This document shows, piece after piece, positions 47,667-63,142 of a stretch of 64,000 nucleotides of DNA. The notes beneath the pieces are model-generated. The model searched no databases and was not told the DNA's origin. It worked only from the letters and a program-made list of their open reading frames with translations. The stretch covers positions 124,001-188,000 of the forward strand of contig JWIT01000009.1 of the NCBI GenBank assembly GCA_000949895.1, written 5' to 3'. The stretch is from Agrobacterium arsenijevicii. Lineage in GTDB: Bacteria > Pseudomonadota > Alphaproteobacteria > Rhizobiales > Rhizobiaceae. The translations under genes and the position numbers were made by a program. Numbering within the stretch: the first letter of the stretch is position 1; every line of letters starts with the position of its first letter.

Positions 47667-48983
47667 ATGCCCAATTATGATGAGATTTATTCCAAGGATT
47701 TCAAGGAAGCGCCCTATTGGTGGGAGGCTGCCGAACCGGAAACTAATCTCGATCCGTTGCCTGAGAAGGTGGATGTGGTCGTCGTTGGGTCCGGTTATGC
47801 GGGAATGAACGCGGCAACGCATCTGGCGCGCGCGGGCCGTTCCGTTGTGGTTCTGGATAGCGACCGGATCGGCTCCGGTTGTTCGACGCGTTCCGGCGGC
47901 ATGGTGTCGAGTGGACAGAAACTCGTGGTCGGTGGCGCCATCAAGGGCATCGATCCGGCTCTCATTTCGCGGCTGATTGGTGAAAGCAACGAAAGCTTTG
48001 AATACCTGAAAATGCTGGTCGCGACGGAGAATCTGGACGCGGGTCTTGAGCTCAAGGGGCGTTTCTTTGGTGCTCATGCTGCCGCAGACTTCGAAACGCT
48101 GAAACGCCATGGCGCGCTGCTGGCGGAAAAGACAGGCGTGAAAGTACATTTTTTCGATCGCGATCATCAACGCGAGGTCATCGGATCGGATTATTATAAC
48201 GGTGGCATGGTCATTGATGATTACGGCGGTCTCCACCCCGGCCTGTATCACAAGGCGTTGCGCGAGCGCGCCAAGGCCGCGGGGGTCCAGTTGCGCTCAC
48301 ATGCGCGAGCCGGCATCGTTAAAGACGGCCCCAACCGTGAAAAGATCGTACCGACTGCGCGCGGTACTATTCGTGCGACCAATGTAATCGTCGCCACGAA
48401 TGGATACACCGAAGCCGATGCCACGCCGGAACTGGCGCGGCGGCTTGTTCCGGTGAAAAGCTACCAGATCGCGACGGAAGCTCTGCCGGCTGAGATTTTG
48501 GCAGAACTCATTCCGCAGTCCCGCATGGTTTCCGATACGCGGCGTGACTTGATCTACAGCCGCGTGTCTCCTGACGGAACCCGCCTGCTGTTCGGCTCGC
48601 GGCCGGGTATTTTCGAGATGACGGAGAAACAGGCAGCCAAGCGGATCTATGCCCGCATGCTCACGATCTGGCCGCAACTCGCAGGTGTCAAGATCACGCA
48701 TTCCTGGGTTGGAAGTGTTGCCATGACCGTCGACAAGCTTGCTCATATTGGCGAGCGGGATGGAGCCGATTTCGCAGTGGGTTGCAACGGCAACGGCGTC
48801 GCACTGATGACCTATCTGGGTTACCAGACCGCGCGAAAAATTCTCGGCGAGCAGAACGCGCCGTCCGCGTTCGACCGTGAAAAGTTCACTGCTGTTCCGT
48901 TCTATTCGGGAAAGCCATGGTTCCTGCCGGCATTTACCGGCTGGTATCGTTTGCGGGACTTCCTCGATCGTCCGAGGGGCTGA
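47667..48983 (+). CDS. FAD-dependent amine/amino-acid oxidoreductase (PuuB/OrdL-like)
   Basis: The 438-residue DAO-family flavoprotein has the N-terminal region YWWEAAEPETNL typical of gamma-glutamylputrescine-oxidase-like enzymes. It also has the FAD dinucleotide fold VVVVGSGYAGMNAATHLARAG near residue 37, SGCSTRSGGM near 70 and a C-terminal FAVGCNGNGVALMTYLG near 370. It follows a polar amino-acid importer and precedes RidA and a second flavoprotein gene. It probably oxidises the secondary or primary amine group of the imported compound, giving an imine. The substrate is unknown. Confidence 0.88.
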   Translation: MPNYDEIYSKDFKEAPYWWEAAEPETNLDPLPEKVDVVVVGSGYAGMNAATHLARAGRSVVVLDSDRIGSGCSTRSGGMVSSGQKLVVGGAIKGIDPALISRLIGESNESFEYLKMLVATENLDAGLELKGRFFGAHAAADFETLKRHGALLAEKTGVKVHFFDRDHQREVIGSDYYNGGMVIDDYGGLHPGLYHKALRERAKAAGVQLRSHARAGIVKDGPNREKIVPTARGTIRATNVIVATNGYTEADATPELARRLVPVKSYQIATEALPAEILAELIPQSRMVSDTRRDLIYSRVSPDGTRLLFGSRPGIFEMTEKQAAKRIYARMLTIWPQLAGVKITHSWVGSVAMTVDKLAHIGERDGADFAVGCNGNGVALMTYLGYQTARKILGEQNAPSAFDREKFTAVPFYSGKPWFLPAFTGWYRLRDFLDRPRG

Positions 48984-49062
48984 AACGTGGAGATCGCAGG
49001 CTCTTCTGATGCGCCTGCGGCCGATTTTCTTTTTTCTTACATGCACAGATCACGGAGATAAC

Positions 49063-49488
49063 ATGAGTGACCTTGAGGTTATCAAGATCAAGTCCGGCAG
49101 CCTTTACGAAGAAAAGGCGAGCTATTCACGCGTAACCACCGTTGGAGATATGATCTTCGTCTCCAACACGGCCGGCATCGATTACAAAACACGCGTCATT
49201 CCATCTGATATTCGCGAGCAGACCATGCAGTGCTTCAAGAATATCGAAGGCGCTCTTGCATCCGTCGGCGCCACGCTTGCGGATGTCGTTCGCTCGCGGG
49301 TCGCCATACCGCGCGCGGAGGACAAGGATGCGGTGCTTGCCGTGCTCGGCGAAAAATTCCGGGGCATCGATCCGGCATCGACCATAACGGCCACACCGCT
49401 GGCTGGCGAATACCGTGTCGAAATCGAAGTCACTGCCTATCGCGGCGTCGGCAAAACCGAAGCCAGGTATATCAAGATCGATCTCTAA
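49063..49488 (+). CDS. RidA-family enamine/imine deaminase
   Basis: This 141-residue member of the RidA/YjgF family starts at 49063 behind CACGGAGATAAC. Features are TVGDMIFVSNTAGIDYKT, CFKNIEGALASVGATLADVV, an Arg in VRSRVAIPRAED, and EIEVTAYRG at the end. RidA proteins hydrolyse reactive imines and enamines released by flavin amine oxidases, which fits the two such genes flanking it. Subtypes without the canonical Arg exist; here an Arg is present, so deaminase activity is likely. Confidence 0.9.
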   Translation: MSDLEVIKIKSGSLYEEKASYSRVTTVGDMIFVSNTAGIDYKTRVIPSDIREQTMQCFKNIEGALASVGATLADVVRSRVAIPRAEDKDAVLAVLGEKFRGIDPASTITATPLAGEYRVEIEVTAYRGVGKTEARYIKIDL

Positions 49489-49539
49489 AATTCACCTCGG
49501 AGCATCGGGTCAGGTTTTCAGTCCGATAAAGGACGCCCG

Positions 49540-50895
49540 ATGTCGTCTCCATGCTTTCGAAAGGCCCGGGCGATGTCTCTTTCCATACCCCTCTCTCCAT
49601 TTCAGGGTGACGAGGATTTTCCTTCCAAAGCGGATGTCGTCGTCATTGGTGGGGGGATCATCGGCATCAACACGGCGTTGACGCTTGCCGAGCGCGGCGT
49701 ATCGGTTGTGGTCGTGGAAAAAGGTGTCATCGCCGGCGAACAATCGGCCCGTAACTGGGGCTGGACGCGCCAGATGGGCCGCGATGCCGCCGAACTTCCC
49801 CTCACCATGGCAAGCCTGCGGTTATGGTCCCAGATGAACGAGCGGATTGGGGCTGAAACGGGCTGGCGCAGAACCGGCATCACCTATCTTTGCTACAACA
49901 GACAGGACATGGATATCTGGGGCGGCTGGTACGAAAAAGGCAAAGCCTATGGTCTGGATTCGCAAATGCTCACCGGGCAGCAGGTTAATGCACTTCTTCC
50001 GGGTTCCTCCGGCGGTCTTATCGGCGGTCTCCACACACCATCTGACGGACGAGCCGAGCCGACGATTGCGGCGGTCGCCATGGCCGATGCGGCGCGCCGC
50101 GCCGGGGCACGCATTCTCACGCAATGTGCGGCAAGAGGTGTTGAGCGAAGTGCAGGCAAAATATCCGCCGTGGTGACGGAACGGGGGCGAATTGCCTGCT
50201 CCTCGGTCGTTCTGGCGGGCGGTGTCTGGTCGCGGTTGTTTGCCGGAAACATGGGACTGGACTTCCCGCAGCTCAAGGTCATGGGTACCGTTGCCCGCGT
50301 GACCGGCGTGGAAGGCATTTCGGATATGCCGGTCGCTGCCTCCGACTTTTCCTACCGTAAGCGTCTGGATGGCGACTACACCATCGCATTGCGCAATGCC
50401 AACATCGCCAACATCGTGCCCGACAGTTTCCGGCTGTTTGCCGAATATATGCCGTCCTTCGTGCAGACGTGGCGCGAACTCAAGCTTCGGGTTGGGAAAG
50501 ATTTTATCAAGGAAATGTCTGTGCCGAGGTCGTGGAGCCTCGATCAGCGGACACCTTTCGAGACTGTGAGAACGCTCGACCCGGTTCCGGCGCAGTCCTT
50601 TAATCGCAAGGCGCTTGCCAAGCTGGCGCGGGCGTATCCGGCTTTTGCAAAGGCGAAGATCGTCAACGAATGGGCCGGAATGATGGATGTCACGCCGGAT
50701 GCCGTGCCGGTTATCAGCGAAGTGGCTTCAGTGCCCGGCTTCCATATTGCGTCCGGTTTTTCTGGCCATGGCTTCGGCATCGGCCCGGGCGCGGGACAGT
50801 TGATGGCTGATATCGTGATGGGAACGACGCCGCTCGTCGATCCGAAACCGTTCCACATCTCCCGGCTACGGCCGAATTTCGCCAAAGCCGGATAA
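49540..50895 (+). CDS. FAD-dependent oxidoreductase (DadA/sarcosine-oxidase-like)
   Basis: This is a 451-residue DAO-family flavoprotein. The FAD fold ADVVVIGGGIIGINTALTLA near residue 28 is followed by EQSARNWGWTRQMGRD near 68, VVLAGGVWSRLFAGNMGLDF near 225 and C-terminal ASGFSGHGFGIGPGAG near 405. ATG at 49540 follows AAGGAC; an ATG at 49573 is an alternative. It and the flavoprotein encoded at 47667 bracket the RidA gene, suggesting successive or alternative amine oxidations in one pathway. The ligand is not known. Confidence 0.88.
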   Translation: MSSPCFRKARAMSLSIPLSPFQGDEDFPSKADVVVIGGGIIGINTALTLAERGVSVVVVEKGVIAGEQSARNWGWTRQMGRDAAELPLTMASLRLWSQMNERIGAETGWRRTGITYLCYNRQDMDIWGGWYEKGKAYGLDSQMLTGQQVNALLPGSSGGLIGGLHTPSDGRAEPTIAAVAMADAARRAGARILTQCAARGVERSAGKISAVVTERGRIACSSVVLAGGVWSRLFAGNMGLDFPQLKVMGTVARVTGVEGISDMPVAASDFSYRKRLDGDYTIALRNANIANIVPDSFRLFAEYMPSFVQTWRELKLRVGKDFIKEMSVPRSWSLDQRTPFETVRTLDPVPAQSFNRKALAKLARAYPAFAKAKIVNEWAGMMDVTPDAVPVISEVASVPGFHIASGFSGHGFGIGPGAGQLMADIVMGTTPLVDPKPFHISRLRPNFAKAG

Positions 50896-50913
50896 CGCCT
50901 CAAAGGTTCAAAT

Positions 50914-51612
50914 ATGTCAGACAGTATGAAACCGGTCGTCATGATCAGCGGGGCATCGCGTGGAATCGGCGCGGCCGCCGCTCAGGCAATGCTGGACGCG
51001 GGCTGGGCCGTCAGCCTTGGCATGCGTGACACTTCCGTTTCGAAGTTTTCCGGCGCGTCGGTTCTCAACTGCCGATACGATGCGCTTGATCCGGTGTCGG
51101 AAAAGGAGTGGGTCGCGGAGACTGTGTCGCGATTTGGCGGCATAGACGGCCTCGTGCTGAATGCCGGCATCATGATGAAGCGTACGGTGCTCGAAGCCAC
51201 CGACGAAGACTTTGACATGATGTTCGCCGTCAACGTCAAATCCCCGATGAGGCTGAGCCAGCTTGCCTGGCCACATCTTCAGAAGAAGCCAGGCCGGATA
51301 GTCGTGATGTCGTCACTATCAGGCAAACGCGTGCGCTCCGCAGGCGCCGGTCTTTACGGGATGTCGAAGTTTGCGCTTACGGCACTTTCGCAGGCGCTAC
51401 GCCAGTGCGGCAAGGAAAGCGGTATCCGGTCCACGGCGATTTGCCCGAGCTATGTGGCCACCGATATGGCGCAGGGACTTGCCAGCGCACCGGAAGAGGA
51501 ACTGACGAGGCCCGAAGACATCGCAATTCTGATACGGACGATCCTTTCGCTTCCTCCAAGTGCGAGTATTGCCGAAGTGCCGGTGAACTGGACCGTTGAA
51601 GAGTGCTATTGA
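50914..51612 (+). CDS. Short-chain dehydrogenase/reductase (SDR)
   Basis: A 232-residue classical SDR. The cofactor loop ISGASRGIGAAAAQAM lies near residue 10, NAGIMMKRT near 85, the catalytic Ser in MSSLSGKRV, and the catalytic Tyr in YGMSKFALTALS. It starts 18 bases after the second flavoprotein gene and is presumably the last gene of the IclR-controlled operon. It may reduce or oxidise the aldehyde or keto product of amine oxidation; unproven. Confidence 0.9.
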   Translation: MSDSMKPVVMISGASRGIGAAAAQAMLDAGWAVSLGMRDTSVSKFSGASVLNCRYDALDPVSEKEWVAETVSRFGGIDGLVLNAGIMMKRTVLEATDEDFDMMFAVNVKSPMRLSQLAWPHLQKKPGRIVVMSSLSGKRVRSAGAGLYGMSKFALTALSQALRQCGKESGIRSTAICPSYVATDMAQGLASAPEEELTRPEDIAILIRTILSLPPSASIAEVPVNWTVEECY

Positions 51613-52047: not shown

Positions 52048-52788
52048 CTATTCCTGGCTTTCGAGCCGGTAGCGGGTGCCTGGATATAATAGCCGCACGG
52101 ATGTTACCGCATGGTTGGAGGACCAGGTTCGGCGTCGCACCTGCAAGCAAGGTTCATGCCGGCCAATCGCCAGCAGTTTGCACTCCCAGGGTTGAGGCGC
52201 TGCGGCCTCGATGAACTGTTCGGTGCGGGAGATCGGCGCCACCGCCGTCAGATATGCATTCGGGGTCAGGGAACTGAAATCCTGCCGGAGATATTCCGGG
52301 GCGACTTCCGCATTGACGAAGCGGTCTTCCAGCTGGATCGGCACGTCGTCCTCATGGTGGACAATGATCGAGTGGAAAATCTTCGATCCGACTTCGATCT
52401 CTAGCGCGGCGGCAAGTTCGGGACCGCATACCTCGGTTTGCGCCAGTATCAGGTTAGGCAGGTGTGAAGAGCCGCGTTCCTTGATCTCGTCCGCGATATT
52501 GCGCACGCCCATCATGCCGGCGCTTCGCTTTTTCAAGGCAACGAACGAGCCGCGCCCCTGAACGCGCACGATGACGCCTTCGGTGGCAAGTTCCCGCAGG
52601 GCGCGGTTTGCCGTCATCCGGCTGACGCCCAGCGTTTCCACCATCTCGTTTTCCGAGGGAACCCTGTGGTGCAATGGCCATTCGCCGCTGGCGATCTTTT
52701 CCTTGATTTGCGTTTTCACACGCTCATAGAGCGGCAGAGAAGGGTGTTCGCTGGATACGGAAAGGCGACTTTCGATCACGGACGGCAT
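52048..52788 (-). CDS. hutC: HutC-like GntR-family repressor
   Basis: This 246-residue GntR/HutC regulator has a winged HTH: LPLYERVKTQIKEKIASGEW, then VPSENEMVETLGVSRMTANR and ALRELATEGVIVRVQGRGSF. A UTRA effector domain follows (FHSIIVHHEDDVPIQLEDRF; VRRRTWSSNHAVTSVRLLYP). HutC senses urocanate in classical histidine utilisation. It is transcribed divergently from the hutXWV-hutH2 operon across a 700-base gap with a candidate palindromic operator. If the lyase gene product yields a urocanate analogue, that would be the natural inducer. Confidence 0.9.
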   Translation of the reverse strand: MPSVIESRLSVSSEHPSLPLYERVKTQIKEKIASGEWPLHHRVPSENEMVETLGVSRMTANRALRELATEGVIVRVQGRGSFVALKKRSAGMMGVRNIADEIKERGSSHLPNLILAQTEVCGPELAAALEIEVGSKIFHSIIVHHEDDVPIQLEDRFVNAEVAPEYLRQDFSSLTPNAYLTAVAPISRTEQFIEAAAPQPWECKLLAIGRHEPCLQVRRRTWSSNHAVTSVRLLYPGTRYRLESQE

Positions 52789-53490
52789 TGGAACTCCCTA
52801 AAAAACAGTCGGATGCCTAAAATATAATCAGAGTTGGCGGCGTATGTAAAATATCATCTTTCCACTTGCTTGTCTTCTAAAACCATGCAAAGTTACATAT
52901 ACAACTTGCGAGGCGCCCAATGAAGGGTGGAAGGGTCAATCTTTTGCGAGCACATTTTCTCGCGGATGACTGAGGTGAGGATGTTCGCATGCCAATCGGC
53001 TCTGAGGGAGAAATCAGGTCCATTGTCTCCGATATTAAAGGGGACGGGCTATGAATGAGCATTTTTACGCATCGCCCACGCTTCCATTGACGCATATGCG
53101 CGCTCGCTTGTTTCGTCCCGCGGCGACCGGATTTGCGAAGGCATCCAGAACGGGCCACGACGATTTTTGCTCGTGGAAAGTGCTGGCGGATCGCTTGGCC
53201 ATGAGGCCGCGGGTCTCCAAAATCGAAGTGACTTCTGCAAAGTTGTATAGTGAACTTGAGGCAAATAATCTGGGTCGCTATGGTGCATTTCCTCGCCGTC
53301 GACAGGGAATCGGCGCCCGAACACACATAAATTCCGGTGAAATACCGCTTCTCATATTGCGAGCGGGCAAACCATGATTTGTCCGGCTAATCCACCATCG
53401 CTCCATGCCTACATGTCCGGGAGAACCCGTAGCGGTACCGCATCAGTTTATGCCGACAGAAATGCCATCATCAATCAAAAGGGGAATAAA
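52789..53490. other. Long hutC/hutX intergenic region
   Basis: About 700 bases without a supported gene. The AT-rich left part (52800-52910) holds the hutC promoter and a palindrome. Frames at 53051-53377 (plus) and 52877-53326 (minus) overlap one another and match no family; both are taken as chance frames. A decayed gene cannot be excluded. The hutX promoter must lie in the right part. Confidence 0.5.
52890..52907. promoter_or_regulatory. Candidate HutC operator
   Basis: AAGTT-ACATATAC-AACTT is a near-perfect 18-base palindrome centred on ATAT, 102 bases upstream of the hutC start. Known HutC sites are similar AT-centred palindromes with TGTATA-like halves, so this is the best operator candidate in the divergent region. 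Binding is inferred. Confidence 0.5.
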
Positions 53491-54528
53491 ATGTTGAATA
53501 CAAAACTGAAATTCGCGCTTGCCACCACCGCCTTGCTTGCGGCGCTGCCGATGGGTTCTGCCCATGCCGCCAGCTACTGCGGAGAGGGAAAGACCGTCAC
53601 TTTCGCCGGCATCGACTGGGAAAGCGGTTCCTTCATTACTGAGGTTATGAAGACCATCCTGTCGAAAGGATATGATTGCAAGGTTGATTCCATTCCCGGC
53701 AATTCCGTGACGCTGGAACAGGCGACCGCCAACAACGACGTGCAGATTTTCGCCGAGGAGTGGATCGGCCGGTCTGATGTCTGGAACAAGGCCGCTGCCG
53801 CAGGGAAAGTGACCTCGGTCGGTAAAACCTTCGTGGGCGCCTCCGAGGGCTGGTTCGTCCCTGAGTATGTGATCAAGGGTGATGCCGCCAAGGGCATCGC
53901 GGCAAAGGCCCCCGACTTGAAAAGTGTCGAGCAGCTTTCCGATCCCAAGATCGTCGCGCTGTTCCAGGATCCGGAAGAGCCGTCCAAGGGACGTTTCCTC
54001 AATTGCCCGTCGGGCTGGACCTGTGAGGGCGTCAATACCGCCAAGCTTGAGGCCTACAAGCTCGACAAGCCCTATGTGAACTTCCGTCCCGGCACGGGCA
54101 CGGCGCTGGATGCGGCGATCAGCTCCGCTTATCTCCAGGGTGACCCGATCTTGTTCTACTATTGGAACCCGACCGCAATCATGGGCAAATACAAGCTGGT
54201 GCAGCTTGCCGAGCCTGCTTACACCGAGGCTTGCTGGAAGGAACTGACGAGCGCCGACGGTAAACGCGAGGCCGGATGCGCATTCCCGGCCGTCGAGGTC
54301 GCCTACGGTGTCAACAGTGATTTCGCCAAGGCCGCCCCTGATATTATGGAAGTCCTCGGCAAAGCCACTTTCCCGCTCGACGAGGTCAATTCCAGCCTCG
54401 CCTATATGGTTGACGAGAAGACCGATGCGGTTGCCGCAGCGACGCGGTTCCTCAAGACCAAGGGCGATATCTGGGGCGCATGGGTGTCACCGGAGGCCAA
54501 AACCCGCATCGAAGCGGCGGTCAAGTAA
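53491..54528 (+). CDS. hutX: ProU-family ABC substrate-binding protein (HutX-like)
   Basis: The 345-residue receptor of the OpuAC (glycine-betaine/proline-betaine/histidine) family has a signal peptide ending GSAHAASYC (cleavage near 26). The mature part is [35 protein letters not shown] and [15 protein letters not shown]. The start at 53491 has AAAAGGGG. In Sinorhizobium meliloti the hutXWV importer handles histidine, proline and betaines. Aromatic residues that cage quaternary ammonium ligands are present in this family; here Trp and Tyr residues are scattered through the sequence. A betaine-like ligand such as ergothioneine or hercynine is possible (see findings). Confidence 0.88.
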
Positions 54529-54632: not shown

Positions 54633-55490
54633 ATGTTTCCTGAAACTTTTCATATTTCCGTTCGCGGCCCGATCAACGAATTCGTCCAGACACTGGTGGT
54701 CAATTACGGTTTCGTGTTCAAGGCGATTTCGCAGACCATTCTGCAGGTCATCCTGTTCATGGAATGGATATTGCGCGGTCTGCCGTGGTGGGTGGTTTTC
54801 ATCGCGTTTCTGGCGCTTGCATGGTTTGCCGCCCGCAAAATCTCGCTCGTTCTCATGGTTGGGGTAATGCTGCTGATCGTCGGCGCTCTCGGCCTCTGGG
54901 ACCTGACGATGCAGACACTGGCGCTGATGCTCATCGCCAGCCTGATTTCCGTCGTCATCGGCGTGCCGGTCGGTATCTGGCTCGCCAAGAGCCAGATCAT
55001 GCGGCGCATAACGTTACCCGTCCTCGACGTCATGCAGACGATGCCGAGTTTCGTCTATCTCATTCCGGCAATCATGCTGTTCGGTCTTGGCAAGGTGCCG
55101 GCAGTCCTCGCGACCATCATATATGCCGTGCCGCCATTGATACGCCTGACCGATCTCGGCATCCGGCAGGTCGACAGCGAAGTGGTGGAGGCGGCGACCG
55201 CTTTTGGCGGCAGCCCGTCGCAAATCCTGTTCGGGGTCGAGCTTCCGCTTGCCACGCCGACGATAATGGCGGGCCTGAACCAGACGATCATGATGGCGCT
55301 TTCCATGGTGGTGGTCGCGTCCATGATCGGCGCCCGCGGACTGGGGGAACAGGTTTTGAACGGAATTCAGACGCTCGATGTCGGAAAGGGTCTCGAAGCG
55401 GGGCTTGGCATCGTCATTCTCGCAATCGTGCTTGACCGTATTACGCAGGGCTTTGGCCAATCCAGCCGGAAGGAACGCGGCGATGACTGA
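54633..55490 (+). CDS. hutW: ProU-family ABC permease (HutW-like)
   Basis: This is a 285-residue ProW/OpuAB-like permease. Hydrophobic helices run from about residue 30; the family motif [20 protein letters not shown] lies near residue 133 and [20 protein letters not shown] near 183. The start at 54633 (MFPETF) is inferred from homology-like spacing; its ribosome site is weak. Its stop overlaps the ATPase ATG by eight bases. It forms the channel for the HutX receptor. Confidence 0.9.
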
Positions 55491-56325
55491 TATTGCAATC
55501 CGTAACGTTTCCAAGATTTTCGGCAGCAACTGGAAGACCGCGCTTGCCATGACCCGGGATGGTGTCGACAAGGCCGCGATATTGGCCAAGACCGGCTGCA
55601 GCGTTGGCCTCGACAATGTCAGCCTCGATATCGCCGGCAGCCGCGTCTTTGTCATCATGGGGCTGTCCGGTTCCGGAAAATCGACCCTGGTTCGCCACAT
55701 CAACCGCCTGATCGAGCCGACAAGCGGTGAAATTCTCGTCGGCGGCAGCAATGTGCTCGACCTGAACCCGAAGGACCTGCGAAGCTTCCGCAATCGCCGC
55801 GTCAGCATGGTGTTCCAGAATTTCGGGCTGATGCCGCATCGCACCGTCCTTCAGAACGTCATCTACGGCCAGCGTGTGCGTGGTCTTTCCACGGCGGAAG
55901 CGGACCCGATCGGCATGAAATGGATCGAGACGGTGGGTCTTGCCGGTTACGAGAACAAAATGCCGCATCAGCTTTCCGGCGGCATGAAGCAGCGTGTCGG
56001 CCTTGCCCGTGCGCTCGCAGCCGATACCGACGTTATTCTGATGGACGAAGCGTTTTCCGCCCTCGACCCGCTGATCCGCGCGGATATGCAGGACCAGCTT
56101 CTGCAACTGGAAAAGAACCTTTCGAAAACGATCGTCTTCATCACCCACGATCTCGATGAGGCGCTGCGCATCGGTGCACAGATCGCGATCCTGAAGGACG
56201 GAAAGCTGGTGCAGGTCGGAACACCTGATGATATCCTCAATCGCCCGGCCAGCGATTATGTCGCCCGGTTCGTACAGCGCCGTGCCGGTGCTGGAAATAC
56301 TGCCGGACATGCCCATCATGAATGA
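55483..56325 (+). CDS. hutV: ProU-family ABC ATPase (HutV-like)
   Basis: The product is a 280-residue ProV-like ATPase with Walker [11 protein letters not shown]-loop [12 protein letters not shown], signature LSGGMKQR, Walker [13 protein letters not shown] and switch FITHD. It lacks the C-terminal CBS domains found in osmotic ProV proteins (about 400 residues). It ends in a His-rich tail (GHAHHE). It overlaps hutW upstream and hutH2 downstream by eight bases each. Loss of the CBS osmosensor suits a nutrient importer rather than an osmoprotection system. Confidence 0.9.
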
Positions 56326-57826
56326 GACCGTCGTCATCGATCGCGGCGCTTCGTGGCGGGATATTGCCGCAGTGGCGAAAGGTGCGCAGCTCTCCCTGGC
56401 GGATGCCGCCTGGGCACGCATCTCCGCCGCGCGCGATATTGTCGAGGCGCTCGTCGCCAAGGGCGTGCGCGGTTATGGCATCAATACAGGCGTCGGCGCC
56501 CTCTGCGATGTTATCGTCGATGAGGATCGTCAGCAGGCTCTGTCGCGCAACATCCTGCTCAGCCATTCCTGCGGCGTCGGAGAACCGCTGGAACGGGAGA
56601 AAACCCGTGCCATCATGGCCGCACAAATTGTCAATTTTGCCCATGGTTTCTCCGGCATAAGGGTGGAAACCGTCGAAGCCTTGCTTGCCCTGTTGAACGC
56701 GGATGTGTTGCCCGTAATCCCCTCGCGCGGCTCGGTCGGATACCTCACGCATGCGGCGGCAATCGGGCTGGTTCTGATCGGCGAAGGCGAGGCGATCCAT
56801 AATGGCGAAAGGCTTGACGGCCGACGGGCGCTGGCTGCCGCCGGTCTTTCGCCGCTTGTGCCTCAGGCCAAGGAGGGCTTAAGCCTCGTCAACGGAACGC
56901 CTTGTGCCACCGGGCTTGCATGTCTGGCATTGGCGCGCATGGAAAGCCTGCTGGACTGGGCGGATGCGGCCGCCGCGATGACCTACGAGAACCTCGGAGC
57001 GCAATCCGATCCCTTCGCGGCGTCGCCGCTTGCTTTGCGTGTCTCCGCAGGGCTTCAGCTTGTCGGGAACAATCTTCGCCATCTGCTGGCAGACAGCCCT
57101 CTGCTAGCTCGGTCGGCGGGTTCGCGCACGCAGGATCCGCTCAGCCTTCGTGCAGTACCGCAAATCCATGGCGCCGTCCGCGACAGCGTCACGCAGATCG
57201 GTGACGTGGTGAACCGTGAATTAGCGAGCGTGACGGACAATCCGGTCGTCGCCGGGTCGCCGGATGCGCCGGAAGTGCATTCGCAGGCCCATGCCGTTGG
57301 TGCGGCACTTGGGCTTGCCATGGATGGCCTCGCCGTTGCCGCGGCGGAGCTGGCAAGCATTTCAGAACGCCGGATCGATCGTCTCGTCAACCCGCTGGTC
57401 AGCGGCTTGCCGGCGTTTCTGGCGGAGGGCAGCGGTGTCTGCTCCGGCTTCATGATCATTCAATACACGGCAGCGGCCCTGGCGGCAGAAAACCGGCGGC
57501 TGGCAGCACCGGCAAGCCTCGATGGCGGCATAACCTCCGCCTTGCAGGAAGACGTTCTCACCCACGCCACGCCGGCTGCCGACAAGGCGCTTTCAATCAT
57601 CGCCAATCTGGAAACGATCCTCGCAATCGAGATCATGAGCGCCGCGCAGGCCTATGACATACAGCCGGAAAAATGTGGCATGGCGCTGGGCACCGATGTG
57701 CTCTATCGGCGTGTTCGCGCTGTGGTCCCGTTCTATCGTGATGATCGGCCACTTAACGGTCTGCTTGCCGTCATAGGGAACATGCTGCACACCACCACCC
57801 CTCAAATGGAGACACCCTGGTCGTAA
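56318..57826 (+). CDS. hutH2: MIO-less histidine-ammonia-lyase homologue (HutH2; possible ergothionase)
   Basis: This is a 502-residue member of the HAL/PAL lyase family. It has the Tyr loop YGINTGVG (Tyr53), LSHSCGVGEPL (residues 82-91), LVNGTPCATG (190-199), SGFMIIQYTAAAL (376-388) and ALQED (408-412). The segment where histidases read GSVGASGDLAPL here reads GSVGYLTHAA (138-147). The Ala-Ser-Gly that cyclises to the MIO electrophile is missing, a seven-residue deletion relative to HutH. DPYSLR of histidases is DPLSLR (273-278), so the catalytic Tyr is Leu. The gene overlaps hutV, hence coupled translation. Deaminating a primary amine without MIO is unlikely; elimination of trimethylamine from ergothioneine or hercynine is the best alternative. 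Confidence 0.85.
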   Translation: MNETVVIDRGASWRDIAAVAKGAQLSLADAAWARISAARDIVEALVAKGVRGYGINTGVGALCDVIVDEDRQQALSRNILLSHSCGVGEPLEREKTRAIMAAQIVNFAHGFSGIRVETVEALLALLNADVLPVIPSRGSVGYLTHAAAIGLVLIGEGEAIHNGERLDGRRALAAAGLSPLVPQAKEGLSLVNGTPCATGLACLALARMESLLDWADAAAAMTYENLGAQSDPFAASPLALRVSAGLQLVGNNLRHLLADSPLLARSAGSRTQDPLSLRAVPQIHGAVRDSVTQIGDVVNRELASVTDNPVVAGSPDAPEVHSQAHAVGAALGLAMDGLAVAAAELASISERRIDRLVNPLVSGLPAFLAEGSGVCSGFMIIQYTAAALAAENRRLAAPASLDGGITSALQEDVLTHATPAADKALSIIANLETILAIEIMSAAQAYDIQPEKCGMALGTDVLYRRVRAVVPFYRDDRPLNGLLAVIGNMLHTTTPQMETPWS

Positions 57827-58013
57827 GTGGGGATGCCTGGGGGCTGGCATCGGAGGAGTGTTCGTTTTCTACCCGCGCCGTCTTTGATCTTTCCAGCGGC
57901 AAGGCGACTATTGCCGCCCAGGGGATTTTGCCAATGTGGTGCGGCAAAGATTTCCTCCGAATTAAAATAGTTTTCCTGTAAAGAAGGGAAAACACTTCAT
58001 GCCGGAGGACCCC

Positions 58014-58676
58014 ATGGCAAAGGACAGCACGAAGACCGAGCCTGCGCTTCTATCGCAGGATCCACATGCGGTTCGCGAGCCGAGGGTCAATAATCTCGAA
58101 ATGGCGATCGGCCATGAGGTGCGTGCCTATCGCAAGAAGCTCGGTATCACGGTCACCGATCTCGCATCCGCCACCGGCGTATCCGTGGGCATGCTCTCAA
58201 AGATCGAAAACGGCAATATCTCCCCGTCGCTCACCACGCTGCAGACGCTTTCGAGGGCGCTGGGCGTGCCGATCACCGCGTTCTTTCGCGGCTTCGAGGA
58301 GCCGCGCAGCGCCACCTTCGTCAAGGCGGGGCAAGGGGTGAACATCGAACGCAGAGGCACCCGCGCCGGCCATCAATACAGCCTGCTGGGCCATATCGAC
58401 AACAATACCAGCGGCGTCACCGTCGAGCCCTATCTCATCACGCTTACTAAAGACTCGGATGTGTTTCCGACCTTCCAGCATGAGGGCATGGAGTTTCTCT
58501 ACATGCTGGAGGGAGAGGTGGTTTATCGCCATGGCGAGCAGCTTTTCACCATGCAGGCCGGCGACAGCTTGTTTTTCGATGCCGATGCGCCGCATGGGCC
58601 GGAGGAGCTGGTGAAACTCCCCGCCCGCTATCTGTCGATCATTTCCTATCCACAAAGGCGGCTGGCCAATGATTGA
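58014..58676 (+). CDS. XRE-cupin transcriptional regulator (PuuR-like)
   Basis: A 220-residue protein with an N-terminal XRE helix-turn-helix (AYRKKLGITVTDLASATGVS, VGMLSKIENGNISPSLTTLQ) and a C-terminal cupin domain (FQHEGMEFLYMLEGEVVYRH; AGDSLFFDADAPHGPEEL). The start at 58014 follows GGAGG; an ATG at 57999 is an alternative. Regulators of this form govern amine, glutamine and related operons. It sits directly before glxB-glxC-glxD-glnT and presumably controls them, being separated from hutH2 by about 190 bases. Confidence 0.9.
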   Translation: MAKDSTKTEPALLSQDPHAVREPRVNNLEMAIGHEVRAYRKKLGITVTDLASATGVSVGMLSKIENGNISPSLTTLQTLSRALGVPITAFFRGFEEPRSATFVKAGQGVNIERRGTRAGHQYSLLGHIDNNTSGVTVEPYLITLTKDSDVFPTFQHEGMEFLYMLEGEVVYRHGEQLFTMQAGDSLFFDADAPHGPEELVKLPARYLSIISYPQRRLAND

Positions 58677-58771
58677 TAAGTTGCCTTAGAAGAAAAAAAT
58701 ATTCCTGATAGTTGATTTGTGAAATTTCGCATGTTAGCCCTTCATTCAGAAACGAATGGAGGTGCCTGTCG

Positions 58772-59677
58772 ATGTGCGGCATTGTTGGACTATTCCTGAA
58801 AGACAAAAGCCTCGAACCACAGCTGGGTGAGCTGCTTTCGGACATGCTCGTTACCATGACGGATCGCGGGCCGGACTCTGCCGGGATCGCCATCTATGGA
58901 AGCGTTGCCGATGGCAGGGCGAAGGTGACCGTGCAGTCGGCCGATCCCGCCGCCGATTTCTCCGGCCTAACCGAAGCGCTGAAGGAAAACGGCGTCGAGG
59001 CTTCGGTCACGGTGAAAAGCACCCATGCGGTGCTGGATATTCCTTCCGATAAGCTCGACGGCATTCGCGCGGTTCTCACCGCCATTCGTCCGGATATCCG
59101 GGTCATGGGTTCCGGCGATAGCGTCGAAATCTACAAGGAAACCGGCCTGCCGAAGGATGTCGTCGCCCGTTTCGACGTGCGCTCCATGGCAGGCTCCCAT
59201 GGCATCGGCCACACCCGCATGGCGACGGAATCGGCCGTGACGACGCTTGGCGCGCACCCCTTTTCCACCGGTGCGGACCAGTGCCTGGTGCATAACGGTT
59301 CGCTCTCCAACCATAACAATCTGCGTCGGGAACTGGTGCGTGAGGGCATGACCTTCGAGACACAGAACGACTCGGAAGTGGCTGCCGCCTATCTCACGGC
59401 GGAAATGGCCAAGGGCAAGGATCTGGGCGAGGCGCTGACCGGCGCGCTGGATGATCTCGATGGTTTCTTCACCTTTGTCGTCGGCACCAAATCCGGTTTC
59501 GGCGTGGTGCGCGATCCCATCGCCTGCAAGCCGGCTGTCATGGCCGAGACCGATCAATATGTCGCTTTCGGTTCCGAATATCGTGCGCTGGTCAACCTGC
59601 CCGGCATCGAAAATGCCCGTGTATGGGAGCCGGAACCGGCGACCGTCTATTTCTGGGACCATGAAAAGGCCGCCTGA
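58772..59677 (+). CDS. glxB: GlxB/MgsA-like class II glutamine amidotransferase subunit
   Basis: This 301-residue class II amidotransferase has catalytic N-terminal Cys2 exposed in MCGIVGLFL. GHTRMATES, VHNGSLSNHNNLRREL and FETQNDSEVAAAYL are conserved glutaminase motifs. The start at 58772 follows GGAGGTG. It is homologous to the first third of glutamate synthase and, with GlxC and GlxD, forms a split glutamate-synthase-like enzyme. In methylotrophs the same trio (MgsABC) makes N-methylglutamate. Cotranscribed with glxC (36-base gap). Confidence 0.9.
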   Translation: MCGIVGLFLKDKSLEPQLGELLSDMLVTMTDRGPDSAGIAIYGSVADGRAKVTVQSADPAADFSGLTEALKENGVEASVTVKSTHAVLDIPSDKLDGIRAVLTAIRPDIRVMGSGDSVEIYKETGLPKDVVARFDVRSMAGSHGIGHTRMATESAVTTLGAHPFSTGADQCLVHNGSLSNHNNLRRELVREGMTFETQNDSEVAAAYLTAEMAKGKDLGEALTGALDDLDGFFTFVVGTKSGFGVVRDPIACKPAVMAETDQYVAFGSEYRALVNLPGIENARVWEPEPATVYFWDHEKAA

Positions 59678-59713
59678 AACCGTCATCGGCGCATATTGCG
59701 AAAGTCATAATCC

Positions 59714-60400
59714 ATGCCAGTTTTCGATCTCTCCCACACGCCGCTGCGTGAACTCAACAGCGCGCTGCACGGCCTTTCCTCAGGCGTAAACGACACCGAA
59801 TTCGAAGTCGTCAACCCGCGCGGCCACCATGCCGTCGCTGTCGGCATCGATAGCCCCGTGATCGTCGATGTGCGCGGTTCGGTCGGTTATTATTGCGCCG
59901 GCATGAATGATGGTGGCACTGTCACGGTTCACGGCTCGGCAGGACCGGGTGTCGCAGAAAACATGATGTCCGGCACCGTCGTTATCGAAGGCGACGCCTC
60001 GCAATATGCCGGCGCCACCGGTCGTGGTGGGCTTCTCGTCATCAAGGGCAATGCCGCCTCCCGTTGCGGCATTTCCATGAAGGGCATCGATATCGTCGTG
60101 AAGGGCAATATCGGCCACATGTCCGCCTTCATGGGCCAGTCCGGCCATCTCGTCGTCTGTGGTGACGCGGGCGATGCGCTCGGCGATTCCCTTTATGAGG
60201 CGAAGCTCTTTGTGCGTGGCTCGGTGAAAAGCCTGGGTGCCGATTGCATCGAAAAGGAAATGCGGCCCGAACATCTGGAGAAACTAGCCGAACTTCTCGA
60301 AAAGGCTGGCGTCACCGATGTCAGCCCGAGTGAGTTCAAACGCTACGGTTCGGCCCGCACGCTCTACAATTTCAACATCGACAACGCCGACGCGTATTGA
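59714..60400 (+). CDS. glxC: GlxC/MgsB-like GXGXG-domain subunit
   Basis: A 228-residue beta-helix protein of the GXGXG family, the third domain of glutamate synthase. Repeated turns are visible: GYYCAGMNDGGTVTVHGSAG, MMSGTVVIEGDASQYAGATG, GGLLVIKGNAASRCGISMKG and GNIGHMSAFMGQSGHLVVCG. It has no catalytic site of its own and joins the amidotransferase and synthase parts. The start follows the GlxB gene closely. Length is typical of GlxC/MgsB. Confidence 0.9.
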   Translation: MPVFDLSHTPLRELNSALHGLSSGVNDTEFEVVNPRGHHAVAVGIDSPVIVDVRGSVGYYCAGMNDGGTVTVHGSAGPGVAENMMSGTVVIEGDASQYAGATGRGGLLVIKGNAASRCGISMKGIDIVVKGNIGHMSAFMGQSGHLVVCGDAGDALGDSLYEAKLFVRGSVKSLGADCIEKEMRPEHLEKLAELLEKAGVTDVSPSEFKRYGSARTLYNFNIDNADAY

Positions 60401-60416
60401 GGCGAGGGATTTTCCG

Positions 60417-61745
60417 ATGAGCTATCACAACCCCTTCACCCCGCCACGTAAATCCGCAACCTTTGATGATCATACGCTGGCGGAAATCCGCCGTGCGGCG
60501 GCGACCGGCATTTACGATATTCGCGGCGCGGGCACCAAGCGCAAGGTTCCGCATTTCGACGACCTCCTGTTTCTCGGCGCGTCCATCTCGCGTTATCCGC
60601 TCGAGGGTTATCGCGAAAAATGCGATACGACCGTCACGCTGGGCACCCGCTTTGCCAAAAAGCCGATCACGCTGAAAACGCCGATCACCATTGCCGGCAT
60701 GAGCTTCGGTGCACTTTCCGGCAACGCCAAGGAGGCGCTCGGCCGCGGTGCGACCATTGCCGGCACCTCCACCACGACGGGCGATGGTGGCATGACAGAT
60801 GAGGAGCGGGGCCACAGCCAGACGCTGGTTTACCAGTATCTGCCATCGCGTTACGGCATGAACCCGAAGGATTTGCGCCGTGCGGACGCCATCGAGGTCG
60901 TTGTCGGCCAGGGCGCGAAACCCGGCGGCGGCGGCATGTTGCTCGGCCAGAAGATTTCCGATCGCGTCGCCAACATGCGCAACCTGCCGAAGGGCATCGA
61001 CCAGCGTTCCGCCTGCCGCCATCCTGATTGGACCGGCCCGGACGATCTGGAAATCAAGATCCTCGAATTGCGCGAAATCACCGACTGGGAAAAGCCGATC
61101 TACATCAAGGTCGGTGGTGCACGGCCTTACTACGATACGGCGCTGGCGGTGAAGGCTGGTGCCGATGTGGTGGTGCTTGATGGCATGCAGGGCGGCACGG
61201 CGGCCACGCAGGATGTCTTTATCGAAAATGTCGGCATGCCCACACTTGCCTGCATTCGCCCTGCCGTGCAGGCGCTTCAGGATCTCGGCATGCACCGCAA
61301 GGTGCAGTTGGTCGTCTCCGGCGGCATTCGTTCAGGTGCGGATGTCGCCAAGGCGCTGGCGCTCGGTGCCGATGCGGTCGCCATCGGAACGGCGGCTCTG
61401 GTGGCGCTGGGTGATAACGATCCACATTGGGAAGATGAGTACCGGAAGCTTGGCACCACCGCCGGCGCTTATGATGACTGGCACGAGGGCAAAGACCCCG
61501 CCGGCATCACCACACAGGACCCGGAACTGGCCGCGCGCCTCGATCCGATCGCGGCCGGTCGTCGCCTCGCCAACTATCTGAAGGTCATGACGCTGGAAGC
61601 GCAGACCATCGCGCGCGCCTGCGGCAAGAACCATCTCCACAATCTGGAGCCGGAAGATCTGGTGGCGTTGACGATGGAGGCTGCTGCAATGGCACAGGTG
61701 CCGCTGGCGGGAACAAACTGGTTCCCGGGGAAAGGCAGCTTTTAA
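60417..61745 (+). CDS. glxD: GlxD/MgsC-like FMN glutamate-synthase-type subunit
   Basis: This 442-residue protein is related to the FMN-binding synthase domain of glutamate synthase (GltS/GltB C-terminal). Motifs are TIAGMSFGALSGNAKEALGR near residue 92, GRGATIAGTSTTTGDGGM, GAKPGGGGMLLGQKIS near 167, YIKVGGARPY and a FMN phosphate site with LVVSGGIRSGADVAKALALG. The start at 60417 fits the family better than the upstream frame opening. It should catalyse transfer of the ammonia or amine-nitrogen between the glutaminase channel and 2-oxoglutarate or glutamate. An intrinsic terminator follows. Confidence 0.9.
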   Translation: MSYHNPFTPPRKSATFDDHTLAEIRRAAATGIYDIRGAGTKRKVPHFDDLLFLGASISRYPLEGYREKCDTTVTLGTRFAKKPITLKTPITIAGMSFGALSGNAKEALGRGATIAGTSTTTGDGGMTDEERGHSQTLVYQYLPSRYGMNPKDLRRADAIEVVVGQGAKPGGGGMLLGQKISDRVANMRNLPKGIDQRSACRHPDWTGPDDLEIKILELREITDWEKPIYIKVGGARPYYDTALAVKAGADVVVLDGMQGGTAATQDVFIENVGMPTLACIRPAVQALQDLGMHRKVQLVVSGGIRSGADVAKALALGADAVAIGTAALVALGDNDPHWEDEYRKLGTTAGAYDDWHEGKDPAGITTQDPELAARLDPIAAGRRLANYLKVMTLEAQTIARACGKNHLHNLEPEDLVALTMEAAAMAQVPLAGTNWFPGKGSF

Positions 61746-61760
61746 AAATACTGAACAGAC

Positions 61761-61797
61761 GGGCGGGCACATTTGGGAGGATGTGCCCGTCCTTTTT
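61761..61797 (+). terminator. Intrinsic terminator after glxD
   Basis: GGGCGGGCACAT and ATGTGCCCGTCC pair (one G-T mismatch) around TTGGGAGG, followed by TTTTT. It lies 16 bases after the glxD stop. The ATG at 61781 that opens the following frame lies inside the right arm, so the real glnT start must be later. GlnT expression therefore needs readthrough or its own promoter. Confidence 0.8.
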
Positions 61798-61834
61798 CGA
61801 TGAAGTGTCTGATATTCAAAAAAAGGGGAATGAC

Positions 61835-63142
61835 GTGACACTGGACCTCTCCACATTTGCTGCCGAAAAAGGCATCAAATATTTCATGATCAGCTATACC
61901 GATCTCTTCGGTGGCCAGCGCGCCAAGCTGGTTCCCGCAGAAGCCATCGGCGATATGCAGAAAGACGGCGCGGGTTTTGCCGGTTTCGCCACATGGTTTG
62001 ATCTGACACCGGCCCATCCCGATCTTTTCGCCGTGCCGGATGCCTCTTCGGTCATCCAGCTTCCCTGGAAAAAGGATGTCGCCTGGGTCGCAGCCGATTG
62101 CGTCATGGAAGACCAGCCGGTGGAGCAGGCGCCGCGTGTCGTCCTGAAAAAACTCATCGCCGAAGCGGCCGGAGAAGGGCTGCGGGTCAAAACCGGTGTG
62201 GAACCGGAGTTCTTCCTGATTTCGCCGGATGGCACCAAAATCTCCGACGAATACGATACGGCGGAAAAGCCGTGTTACGACCAGCAGGCGGTGATGCGCC
62301 GCTACGACGTGATCGCCGAGATTTGCGATTATATGCTGGAGCTTGGCTGGAAGCCCTACCAGAACGACCATGAGGACGCGAACGGCCAGTTCGAGATGAA
62401 CTGGGAATATGACGATGCGCTCCAGACCGCAGACAAACATTCCTTCTTCAAGTTCATGGTCAAATCCGTCGCCGAAAAGCACGGGCTGCGCGCAACCTTC
62501 ATGCCGAAGCCTTTCAAGGGGCTGACCGGGAATGGCTGCCATGCCCATATTTCGGTCTGGGACCTCGAAGGCAAGGTCAATGCCTTCGCCGACAAGGCGA
62601 TGCCTTTTGGCCTGTCGGCCAAGGGCAAGACGTTTCTCGGCGGCATCATGAAACATGCTTCCGCCCTTGCGGCCGTTACCAATCCAACGGTCAATTCCTA
62701 CAAGCGCATCAACGCACCGCGCACCATCTCGGGCGCGACTTGGGCGCCGAACACGGTGACCTGGACCGGCAACAACCGCACCCATATGGTGCGCGTGCCG
62801 GGGCCGGGGCGTTTCGAACTGCGCCTGCCGGATGGCGCCGTGAACCCCTATCTGCTGCAGGCCATCATCATCGCCGCCGGCCTCTCCGGTGTCCGCTCGC
62901 AGGCCGATCCCGGTCCGCATCACGATATCGACATGTATCGTGAGGGCCATAAGGTGACGAATGCACCGAAACTGCCGCTCAATCTTCTCGATGCGCTACG
63001 CGAATATGAGAAGGATACGGAATTGCAGCAGGCGCTGGGCGTCGAATTCTCGAAGGCCTATCTCAAGCTCAAACAGGGCGAGTGGAACAGCTATTGCTCG
63101 CAATTCACCGCCTGGGAGCATCAAACTACTCTGGACGTTTAA
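61835..63142 (+). CDS. glnT: GlnT glutamine-synthetase-like / gamma-glutamylmethylamide-synthetase-like ligase
   Basis: This is a 435-residue glutamine-synthetase-fold ligase of the GSIII/GlnT/GmaS group. It has an N-terminal beta-grasp (KYFMISYTDLFGGQRAKLVP), the ATP/metal site KTGVEPEFFLI near 125, GNGCHAHISVWD near 232, RTISGATWAPNTVTW near 295 and a glutamate-binding stretch ending GRFELRLPDGAVNPYL. The GTG start at 61835 follows AAAAGGGG and fits the family length; the upstream ATG lies in a terminator. Its relatives use ATP to join an amine to glutamate. Next to glxBCD it could make gamma-glutamylmethylamide, though plain glutamine synthesis is equally possible. Confidence 0.88.
   Translation: MTLDLSTFAAEKGIKYFMISYTDLFGGQRAKLVPAEAIGDMQKDGAGFAGFATWFDLTPAHPDLFAVPDASSVIQLPWKKDVAWVAADCVMEDQPVEQAPRVVLKKLIAEAAGEGLRVKTGVEPEFFLISPDGTKISDEYDTAEKPCYDQQAVMRRYDVIAEICDYMLELGWKPYQNDHEDANGQFEMNWEYDDALQTADKHSFFKFMVKSVAEKHGLRATFMPKPFKGLTGNGCHAHISVWDLEGKVNAFADKAMPFGLSAKGKTFLGGIMKHASALAAVTNPTVNSYKRINAPRTISGATWAPNTVTWTGNNRTHMVRVPGPGRFELRLPDGAVNPYLLQAIIIAAGLSGVRSQADPGPHHDIDMYREGHKVTNAPKLPLNLLDALREYEKDTELQQALGVEFSKAYLKLKQGEWNSYCSQFTAWEHQTTLDV

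Follow-up and report, generated by a model that had tools for sequence, protein, structure and literature searches.

HutH2 of Agrobacterium arsenijevicii, a predicted hercynine trimethylamine-lyase from a conserved MIO-free clade of the histidase fold

A stretch of 64,000 nucleotides from Agrobacterium arsenijevicii (contig JWIT01000009.1 of assembly GCA_000949895.1, positions 124,001 to 188,000; hereafter 'the window') carries a gene, here called HutH2, whose product resembles histidine ammonia-lyase (HAL, histidase) and lacks the Ala-Ser-Gly tripeptide from which such enzymes form their methylidene-imidazolone (MIO) electrophile. HutH2 is a member of a conserved MIO-free clade and not a decayed histidase. 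Its residues and gene neighbours suggest that it probably acts as a hercynine trimethylamine-lyase and thereby supplies the Hut pathway with urocanate. A broader proposal, which we favour on balance though less firmly, is that MIO-free hercynine lyases, with an importer of their own, form a widespread class integrated in the urocanate/HutC circuit in Alpha-, Beta- and Gammaproteobacteria, and that each of three MIO-free lyase types has its own urocanase partner, matched by the group at the imidazole C2 (H, SH or SCH3), which would be read by residue 383 (Tyr, Lys or Leu, respectively).

The active site of HutH2

The 502-residue reading frame of HutH2 is free of internal stops. In a profile search its residues 11-492 fall on positions 11-494 of the HutH model, approximately the full length, so that the histidase-like alignment described in the initial annotation of the sequence holds over nearly the whole protein, and Pfam Lyase_aromatic (PF00221) matches residues 13-467 with 507 bits, as expected of the fold shared by HAL and phenylalanine ammonia-lyase (PAL). 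Both scores against the curated histidase models lie below their cut-offs (472.3 vs 524 and 459.6 vs 539.15 bits). A structure model (AlphaFold, 24 sequences) likewise has the HAL fold, with template modelling (TM) scores of 0.82-0.86 to HAL and 0.79-0.81 to ergothionase (Foldseek); its mean predicted local distance difference test (pLDDT) score is 73.2, with several active-site loops below 50, and it was used for the fold only, not for the pocket.

Translation gives GSVGYLTHAA at residues 138-147 and DPLSLR within the QDPLSLR of residues 272-278, both as first annotated. In the alignment the ASGD of HutH stands opposite the single Tyr142 of HutH2, a net loss of three residues; the Ala-Ser-Gly was thus rightly reported as missing, and has not moved elsewhere. 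The MIO-forming tripeptide required for EC 4.3.1.3 is absent. The initial annotation also held that the catalytic Tyr is gone and that the remaining pocket is intact, and each statement stands in part. The equivalent of HAL Tyr280 is indeed Leu275, but Tyr53 is kept; likewise Tyr53, His83, Asn192, Gln272, Arg278 and Glu411 are retained, but the positions of HAL Phe329 and of residue 383 are altered. For HAL we take the corresponding numbers to be Tyr53, His83, Asn195, Gln277, Arg283 and Glu414, and the numbers Y280 and F329 appear in titles of PDB entries.

A conserved MIO-free clade

Relatives were sought in two samples, one of 199 genomes from the order and the other of 398 from the phylum. 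An upper set of matches (above 400 bits, 49-74% identity) occurs in 14/199 and 23/398 genomes, that of the window being counted in each, and a lower set, among the matches listed, lies below 310 bits at 35-44% identity; the Tyr loop is present in every upper-set sequence that was read, and ASG in those read from the lower set. Pseudomonas loci were added as the best 80 of at least 583 relatives ranked by likeness to a Pseudomonas sequence, which is why all 80 come from that genus. For alignment and tree, loci L039-L058 (whose genes are identical to those of L080-L099) and fragments of 300 residues or fewer were dropped, read-through N-termini of rows longer than 650 residues were trimmed, and for the residue and neighbour tallies one open frame of L199 was trimmed to its lyase part.

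Tyr142, His145 and Leu275 are found in 121/121 MIO-less relatives and in 0/23 canonical histidases, which have Ala, Pro and Tyr at these positions without exception (23/23). The 121 sequences are not 121 independent cases, because the 80 Pseudomonas loci are close and two of them (L118, L119) belong to the same strain; with the 80 removed, the three residues are still present in 41/41. The six retained pocket residues listed above, Tyr53 among them, are kept in all 121. The Phe329 position is Phe in every canonical sequence (23/23) and Ala or Pro in every MIO-less one (121/121; Ala326 in HutH2), while residue 383 is Tyr in 120/121 MIO-less sequences and Val (20/23) or Tyr (3/23) in canonical ones. 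The ratio of nonsynonymous to synonymous substitution rates (dN/dS) between HutH2 and three relatives is 0.133, 0.144 and 0.133, and a branch with an SH-aLRT (approximate likelihood-ratio test) support of 99 separates the MIO-less rows from the others, in a quick tree that carries long-branch warnings. Clade-wide conservation of Tyr142, His145 and Leu275 together with this low dN/dS agrees with the earlier view that the protein has not simply decayed at random.

Operon and Hut context

In the window, HutH2 follows genes for an ATP-binding cassette (ABC) importer resembling HutXWV, the ATPase gene overlapping the start of HutH2 by 8 bases, and a HutC-family gene is divergent from this importer-HutH2 operon. 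HutC alone links HutH2 to the Hut system within the window, and its product misses the narrower PRK14999 model (260.3 of 424 bits). The nearest solved chains of the HutX-like binding protein are of glycine-betaine type (7yle, 116.9 bits; 1r9l, 51.2 bits), and five Trp positions of 7yle are kept; its score on the ProX model is under the cut-off (100.6 of 215).

Elsewhere in the genome, an ordinary MIO histidase (GSVGASGDLAPLAHMA, QDPYCIR) clusters with hutF, hutI, hutG and hutU, and the organism should therefore not depend on HutH2 for histidine. There are only two HAL homologues in this genome.

For the wider context, 33 genome regions of about 10 kb on each side of the lyase were fetched, with tally thresholds chosen in this analysis, as they were for the Pseudomonas loci. 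At least one of HutC, HutU, HutI, HutG and HutF lies near the MIO-less lyase in 29/33 regions, specifically HutC in 24 and HutU in 19, and an importer binding protein is present in 27. The gene order HutC-importer-lyase of the window recurs in Sinorhizobium sp. RAC02 and in S. meliloti pSymB, the latter with HutF in addition, and on Aureimonas pAU20c the MIO-less gene is the HutH of the plasmid's hut operon and the only HAL match of the plasmid at E <= 1e-50. In Pseudomonas, 80/80 loci have an OpuAC importer, the MIO-less lyase and the true histidase in consecutive order. The full set of hutF/C/D/U and hutI/G is found in 68 of these; ten of the remaining 12 are short, and two (L134, L152) are full-length without a hutF match.

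The urocanases near these lyases can be typed, as NCBIfam models separate the hydratases of urocanate, thiourocanate and S-methyl thiourocanate (cut-offs for the two thio models, 930 and 880). All 16 urocanases tested, comprising 15 of the 22 HutU listed from MIO-less loci and that of the window genome, are plain HutU, with 945-1019 bits on the HutU model and 663-715 bits on the two thio models.

Two groups of relatives differ in their surroundings. On plasmids of R. daejeonense and Rhizobium sp. ACO-34A (L033, L034), relatives of 74% identity stand without HutC or an OpuAC importer, next to a fatty-acid-desaturase-like protein, a PhnD-type binder and proteins annotated as cytochrome c, (2Fe-2S), molybdopterin or aldehyde dehydrogenase proteins, which we read as a possible different use of the same lyase. 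On N. galegae pNgVX (L202), the lyase and other operon genes are split into several frames, and this copy looks inactive because its frames are broken.

Proposed function and mechanism

Gene neighbours and active-site residues together suggest a route from transporter ligand to regulation. HutXWV, as a betaine-type importer, would bring in hercynine (N-alpha-trimethyl-L-histidine, or histidine betaine), HutH2 would eliminate trimethylamine from it to give urocanate, and urocanate would both relieve repression by HutC and be degraded to glutamate by the ordinary Hut enzymes. The importer fits hercynine in that its binder is nearest, if distantly, to betaine-type binders and keeps five Trp positions of one of them. 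Elimination of trimethylamine, as first proposed, appears the likeliest chemistry because MIO is absent and Leu275 is common to ergothionase.

In histidase, MIO turns the amine into a leaving group. Such an electrophile should be unnecessary for hercynine, whose trimethylammonium group leaves readily without activation. In the proposed mechanism, Tyr53 would be the base that takes the beta proton, His83 and Glu411 would hold the imidazole, and Arg278 and Asn192 the carboxylate, with Tyr142, at the former MIO position, facing or holding the trimethylammonium cation. Tyr383 would line the imidazole C2, residue 383 following the C2 group as Tyr (H), Lys (thione) or Leu (S-methyl). The altered residues Tyr142, Leu275, Ala326 and Tyr383 should thus surround the amine and the ring.

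The hercynine would come from outside, from fungi or actinobacteria, because EgtD has no match in the window genome, by a search whose control was found in one genome only and under the cut-off. If the proposal is true, it provides a function for Pseudomonas hutH1/hutXWV and rhizobial hutH2, the lyases being recorded as histidine ammonia-lyase; fungal and actinobacterial hercynine would be usable in soil as a source of nitrogen and carbon, with release of trimethylamine; and the clade would show a second way in which nature carries out ammonia-lyase chemistry in the absence of MIO. The sequence rule (no ASG, Tyr142, Leu275, Tyr383) could serve to correct many 'histidine ammonia-lyase' annotations. 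No open-access PMC paper that assigns a hercynine lyase to HutH1 or HutH2 was found in a search that left subscription literature outside its range, where such an assignment may be in print; the passages seen of PMC13405746, PMC8871633, PMC9732360, PMC12977541, PMC12772324 and PMC9002059 contain none.

Several observations weigh against hercynine as the substrate, or against the wider scheme. In the window genome about 170 kb of the shared contig separate HutU from HutH2, and for a trimethylamine route (Tdm) there is one DUF1989 match, in a 322-residue frame, and no Tdm-sized protein. A HutC gene would also be expected beside an ordinary histidase paralogue, and PMC8871633 describes HutXWV as responsible for histidine uptake. 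Operator-like sites with up to 3 mismatches are no more frequent than expected in the window (7 vs 5.6), and while such a site lies near 21/29 hutC genes, that of the window included, there is none at the other 8/29. Two unrelated importer types occur near the lyase (OpuAC in 10/33 regions, a polar or opine-like type in 17/33). No hut gene was found near the lyase in 4/33 regions (L071; L079, at a short contig end; L085; L097), nor on the plasmids L033 and L034. A Pseudomonas HutH1 of the clade passes the histidase cut-offs (544.9 vs 539.15 and 558 vs 524 bits), and the curated HutH cut-offs therefore fail to separate the clade. Overall likeness to the Treponema denticola ergothionase (176 and 226 bits for two Tyr383 members, 197 and 221 for two canonical HutH) cannot set the clade apart either; what distinguishes it is the loop, residue 383 and its gene neighbours. 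Finally, the S-methyl pairing comes from one A. tumefaciens lineage with five near-identical plasmids, and the S-methyl thiourocanate hydratase model matched 0/397 genomes of the order and none of the controls.

Alternative substrates and functions

HutH2 might act on N,N-dimethylhistidine, an opine such as histopine or another N-alpha-substituted histidine from which urocanate is likewise formed, an unlikely reading that draws on the second importer type. The lyase has a polar-type binding protein as neighbour in L036, L038 and 17/33 genome loci. One such binder, that of R. etli (L038), was compared with solved structures; octopine-binding 5ore scored highest (199 bits), with nopaline-binding protein at 184.9 bits. 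The window and the Pseudomonas loci, however, have a betaine-type binder. Without MIO, a secondary or tertiary amine leaves poorly, and a sister gene beside an S-methyl thiourocanate hydratase (below) points to trimethylammonium substrates.

The initial annotation named ergothioneine or hercynine as the substrate, and the evidence points to the latter. Ergothionase activity (ergothioneine to thiourocanate and trimethylamine) has in its favour the similar modelled fold, the lack of MIO and the Leu at the Tyr280 position, which is indeed common to HutH2 and the T. denticola enzyme (6s7j: loop SSIG-EGDITTL, QDPLSFR, Lys383) and is also found in four ergothionase-type lyases of thiourocanate clusters. 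HutH2 accordingly has the HAL fold without MIO and with Leu for Tyr280 that mark an ergothionase, but Tyr383 in place of the Lys found in 6/6 ergothionase-type sequences; Lys383 of 6s7j has a catalytic role. The deletion is not shared (SSIG-EGD there vs GSVGY--- in HutH2); given this difference between the loops of the two MIO-free types, MIO has likely been lost twice, each time with Leu for Tyr280. Among solved relatives of HutH2 the T. denticola ergothionase comes in 17th place, at 175 bits against 296 for the best histidase, and HutH2 does not group with ergothionases in the quick tree, with its long-branch warnings. A third gene, lying near a MIO-less one (P0002), does encode an ergothionase-type protein (loop GSLGAADLAQL; best solved match ergothionase, 268 bits); a PDB search with a 127-residue piece did not bring up the ergothionase alignment, and the search with P0002 did.

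The thiourocanate side of the argument is consistent with this. Thiourocanate hydratase exceeds its cut-off in 5/398 genomes (E <= 1e-250), and the five regions hold an ergothionase-type Lys383 lyase in 4/5 and a GSVGY lyase in 0/5, no lyase being seen in L200. At the same threshold the window genome has no match to thiourocanate hydratase; its HutU is plain, it has no further HAL homologue, and the window operon starts beside HutC. The five regions (L196-L200, from genomes G187, G429, G023, G482 and G464 of the window's order) appear as ergothioneine clusters with the lyase loop SIGCAD or SMGCAD, and also hold an amidohydrolase, a Zn hydrolase (not found in L200) and a DUF917-like protein. 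In G023, G187 and G429 a MIO-less clade lyase is also encoded next to HutC, each time on a different contig from the ergothioneine cluster (L078, L077 and L084), so that one cell has distinct enzymes for what are presumably distinct substrates. An ergothioneine sulfonate pathway of A. radiobacter is in print (Yan et al. 2022, as cited in PMC13405746) and may involve the A. tumefaciens lyase described below, so that part of the MIO-less clade may already have been characterised. Loop, Lys383, tree, partner hydratases and the lack of a hydratase match led us to reject ergothioneine as the main substrate, and an ergothionase role for HutH2 is improbable.

A MIO-independent histidase, or an inactive paralogue retained for regulation or assembly, would suit the Hut operon setting and the Pseudomonas member that passes the histidase cut-offs, and is very improbable nonetheless. 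A canonical MIO motif lies within a HutH match or frame in 32/33 genomes, so that an ordinary enzyme coexists. The exception (G483, L099) speaks for this reading: a hut operon of HutC, HutF, HutU, HutI and HutG contains the MIO-less lyase and the ergothionase-type P0002, and canonical HutH was not found in that genome. Its third HAL homologue has another MIO loop (GSVGASGDLTPL, YGITTGYG) and is presumably PAL/aminomutase-like. Inactivity sits badly with the acid/base and carboxylate-binding residues kept in 121/121 and a dN/dS of 0.13-0.14, and hutH1 is dispensable on histidine according to PMC8871633.

The least probable alternative, S-methylergothioneine or another C2-substituted betaine as substrate, rests on the 60.9% identity of HutH2 to the lyase of an S-methyl-thiourocanate cluster, but Leu383 is peculiar to that lyase (1/121), where the helix is also altered at 376, 379 and 380, and the window genome has a plain HutU and no match to the S-methyl model (E <= 1e-250, a search with no positive control). 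The cluster in question, on an A. tumefaciens pAt plasmid (L037, pAtAF1_95), combines the lyase with an OpuAC importer and a protein that scores above the cut-off of the S-methyl thiourocanate hydratase model (976.5 vs 880 bits), and links the clade to betaine-type imidazole substrates. It also holds a Mo-dependent S/N-oxide reductase, an amidohydrolase, a Zn hydrolase and a DUF917 protein, and we read it as a probable pathway for S-methylergothioneine or a related compound.

Further features of the locus

The features of the window are collected in Table 1. Both operator-like palindromes lie in the intergenic stretch between HutC and the importer, and the first stands alone in the 64-kb window in having no more than 2 mismatches to the HutC-operator consensus, which we take to be TTGTATATACAA.

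Table 1. Features of HutH2 and its locus (positions within the window)
Feature	Position	Strand	Basis
HutH2, predicted hercynine trimethylamine-lyase, MIO-free HAL fold, 502 aa	56318..57826	+	Translation, profiles, alignment
HutH2 key residues: Tyr53, His83, Tyr142 (MIO site), His145, Asn192, Gln272, Leu275, Arg278, Tyr383, Glu411			
Conserved SHSCGVGEPL codons, residues 82-91	56561..56590	+	Reading-frame position
GSVGYLTHAA codons, residues 138-147; GSVGASGDLAPL there in canonical histidases	56729..56758	+	Translation, alignment
QDPLSLR codons, residues 272-278; Leu275 replaces HAL Tyr280	57131..57151	+	Translation, alignment
HutX-like OpuAC substrate-binding protein	53491..54528 (likely start; open from 53374)	+	Profiles, solved chains
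HutW-like ABC permease	54633..55490 (likely start; open from 54480)	+	Profiles
HutV-like ABC ATPase	55483..56325	+	TIGR01186, 334 bits (cut-off 326.6)
HutC-family repressor	52048..52788	-	TIGR02018, 288.1 bits (cut-off 220)
HutC-operator-like palindrome, 2 mismatches to TTGTATATACAA	52893..52904	.	Match to assumed operator consensus
Second HutC-operator-like site, 3 mismatches	53243..53254	.	Resembles sites beside hutC in L080 and L035
GlxB/GlxC/GlxD and type III glutamine synthetase	58772..63142	+	Adjacent block, outside the conserved system

Downstream, an XRE-cupin regulator, GlxB/C/D and the type III glutamine synthetase (57999-63142) adjoin HutH2. A methylamine link through GlxBCD and this synthetase, by way of trimethylamine use, is attractive but was dropped from the system, because the XRE-Glx-GlnT block stands alone in many other rhizobial plasmids; a strong Glx-GlnT copy lies beside the lyase in none of 40 other regions (L032-L038, L067-L099). 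Upstream of HutC (47667-51612) are two FAD-dependent amine-oxidase-like proteins, a RidA-type protein and a short-chain dehydrogenase/reductase.

Comparison with known systems

With HAL (P. putida, 1b8f) HutH2 shares the fold, likeness over the full length, the residues corresponding to Tyr53, His83, Asn195, Gln277, Arg283 and Glu414, and the hut operon setting, and it differs in lacking ASG and MIO, in the replacement of Tyr280 by Leu and of Phe329 by Ala (Ala or Pro in the clade), in Tyr at 383 where HAL mostly has Val, and in scoring under the histidase cut-offs. With ergothionase (6s7j, 6s7q) it has in common a MIO-free HAL fold, Tyr53, the Leu in QDPLS, Glu411 and, presumably, the elimination of trimethylamine; ergothionase differs in the loop SSIG-EGD, in Lys383, in a Ser at the position of HutH2 Asn192 and in its separate branch, and its rhizobial relatives, unlike HutH2, pair with thiourocanate hydratase.

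The lyase of the A. tumefaciens plasmid belongs to the same clade, with the Tyr142 loop, an OpuAC importer and 60.9% identity to HutH2, and differs in Leu383 and the altered stretch 376-383, in its S-methyl thiourocanate hydratase partner and in that no HutC, HutI, HutG or HutF was found within 12 kb. The HutH1 of the 80 fetched Pseudomonas loci, among which P. fluorescens SBW25 is not included, belongs to the clade too. HutH1/HutXWV of SBW25 have the gene layout of these loci, with hutH1 dispensable on histidine as stated in PMC8871633, and Pseudomonas HutH1 differs from HutH2 in its identity of about 50% and in standing in tandem with the true histidase.

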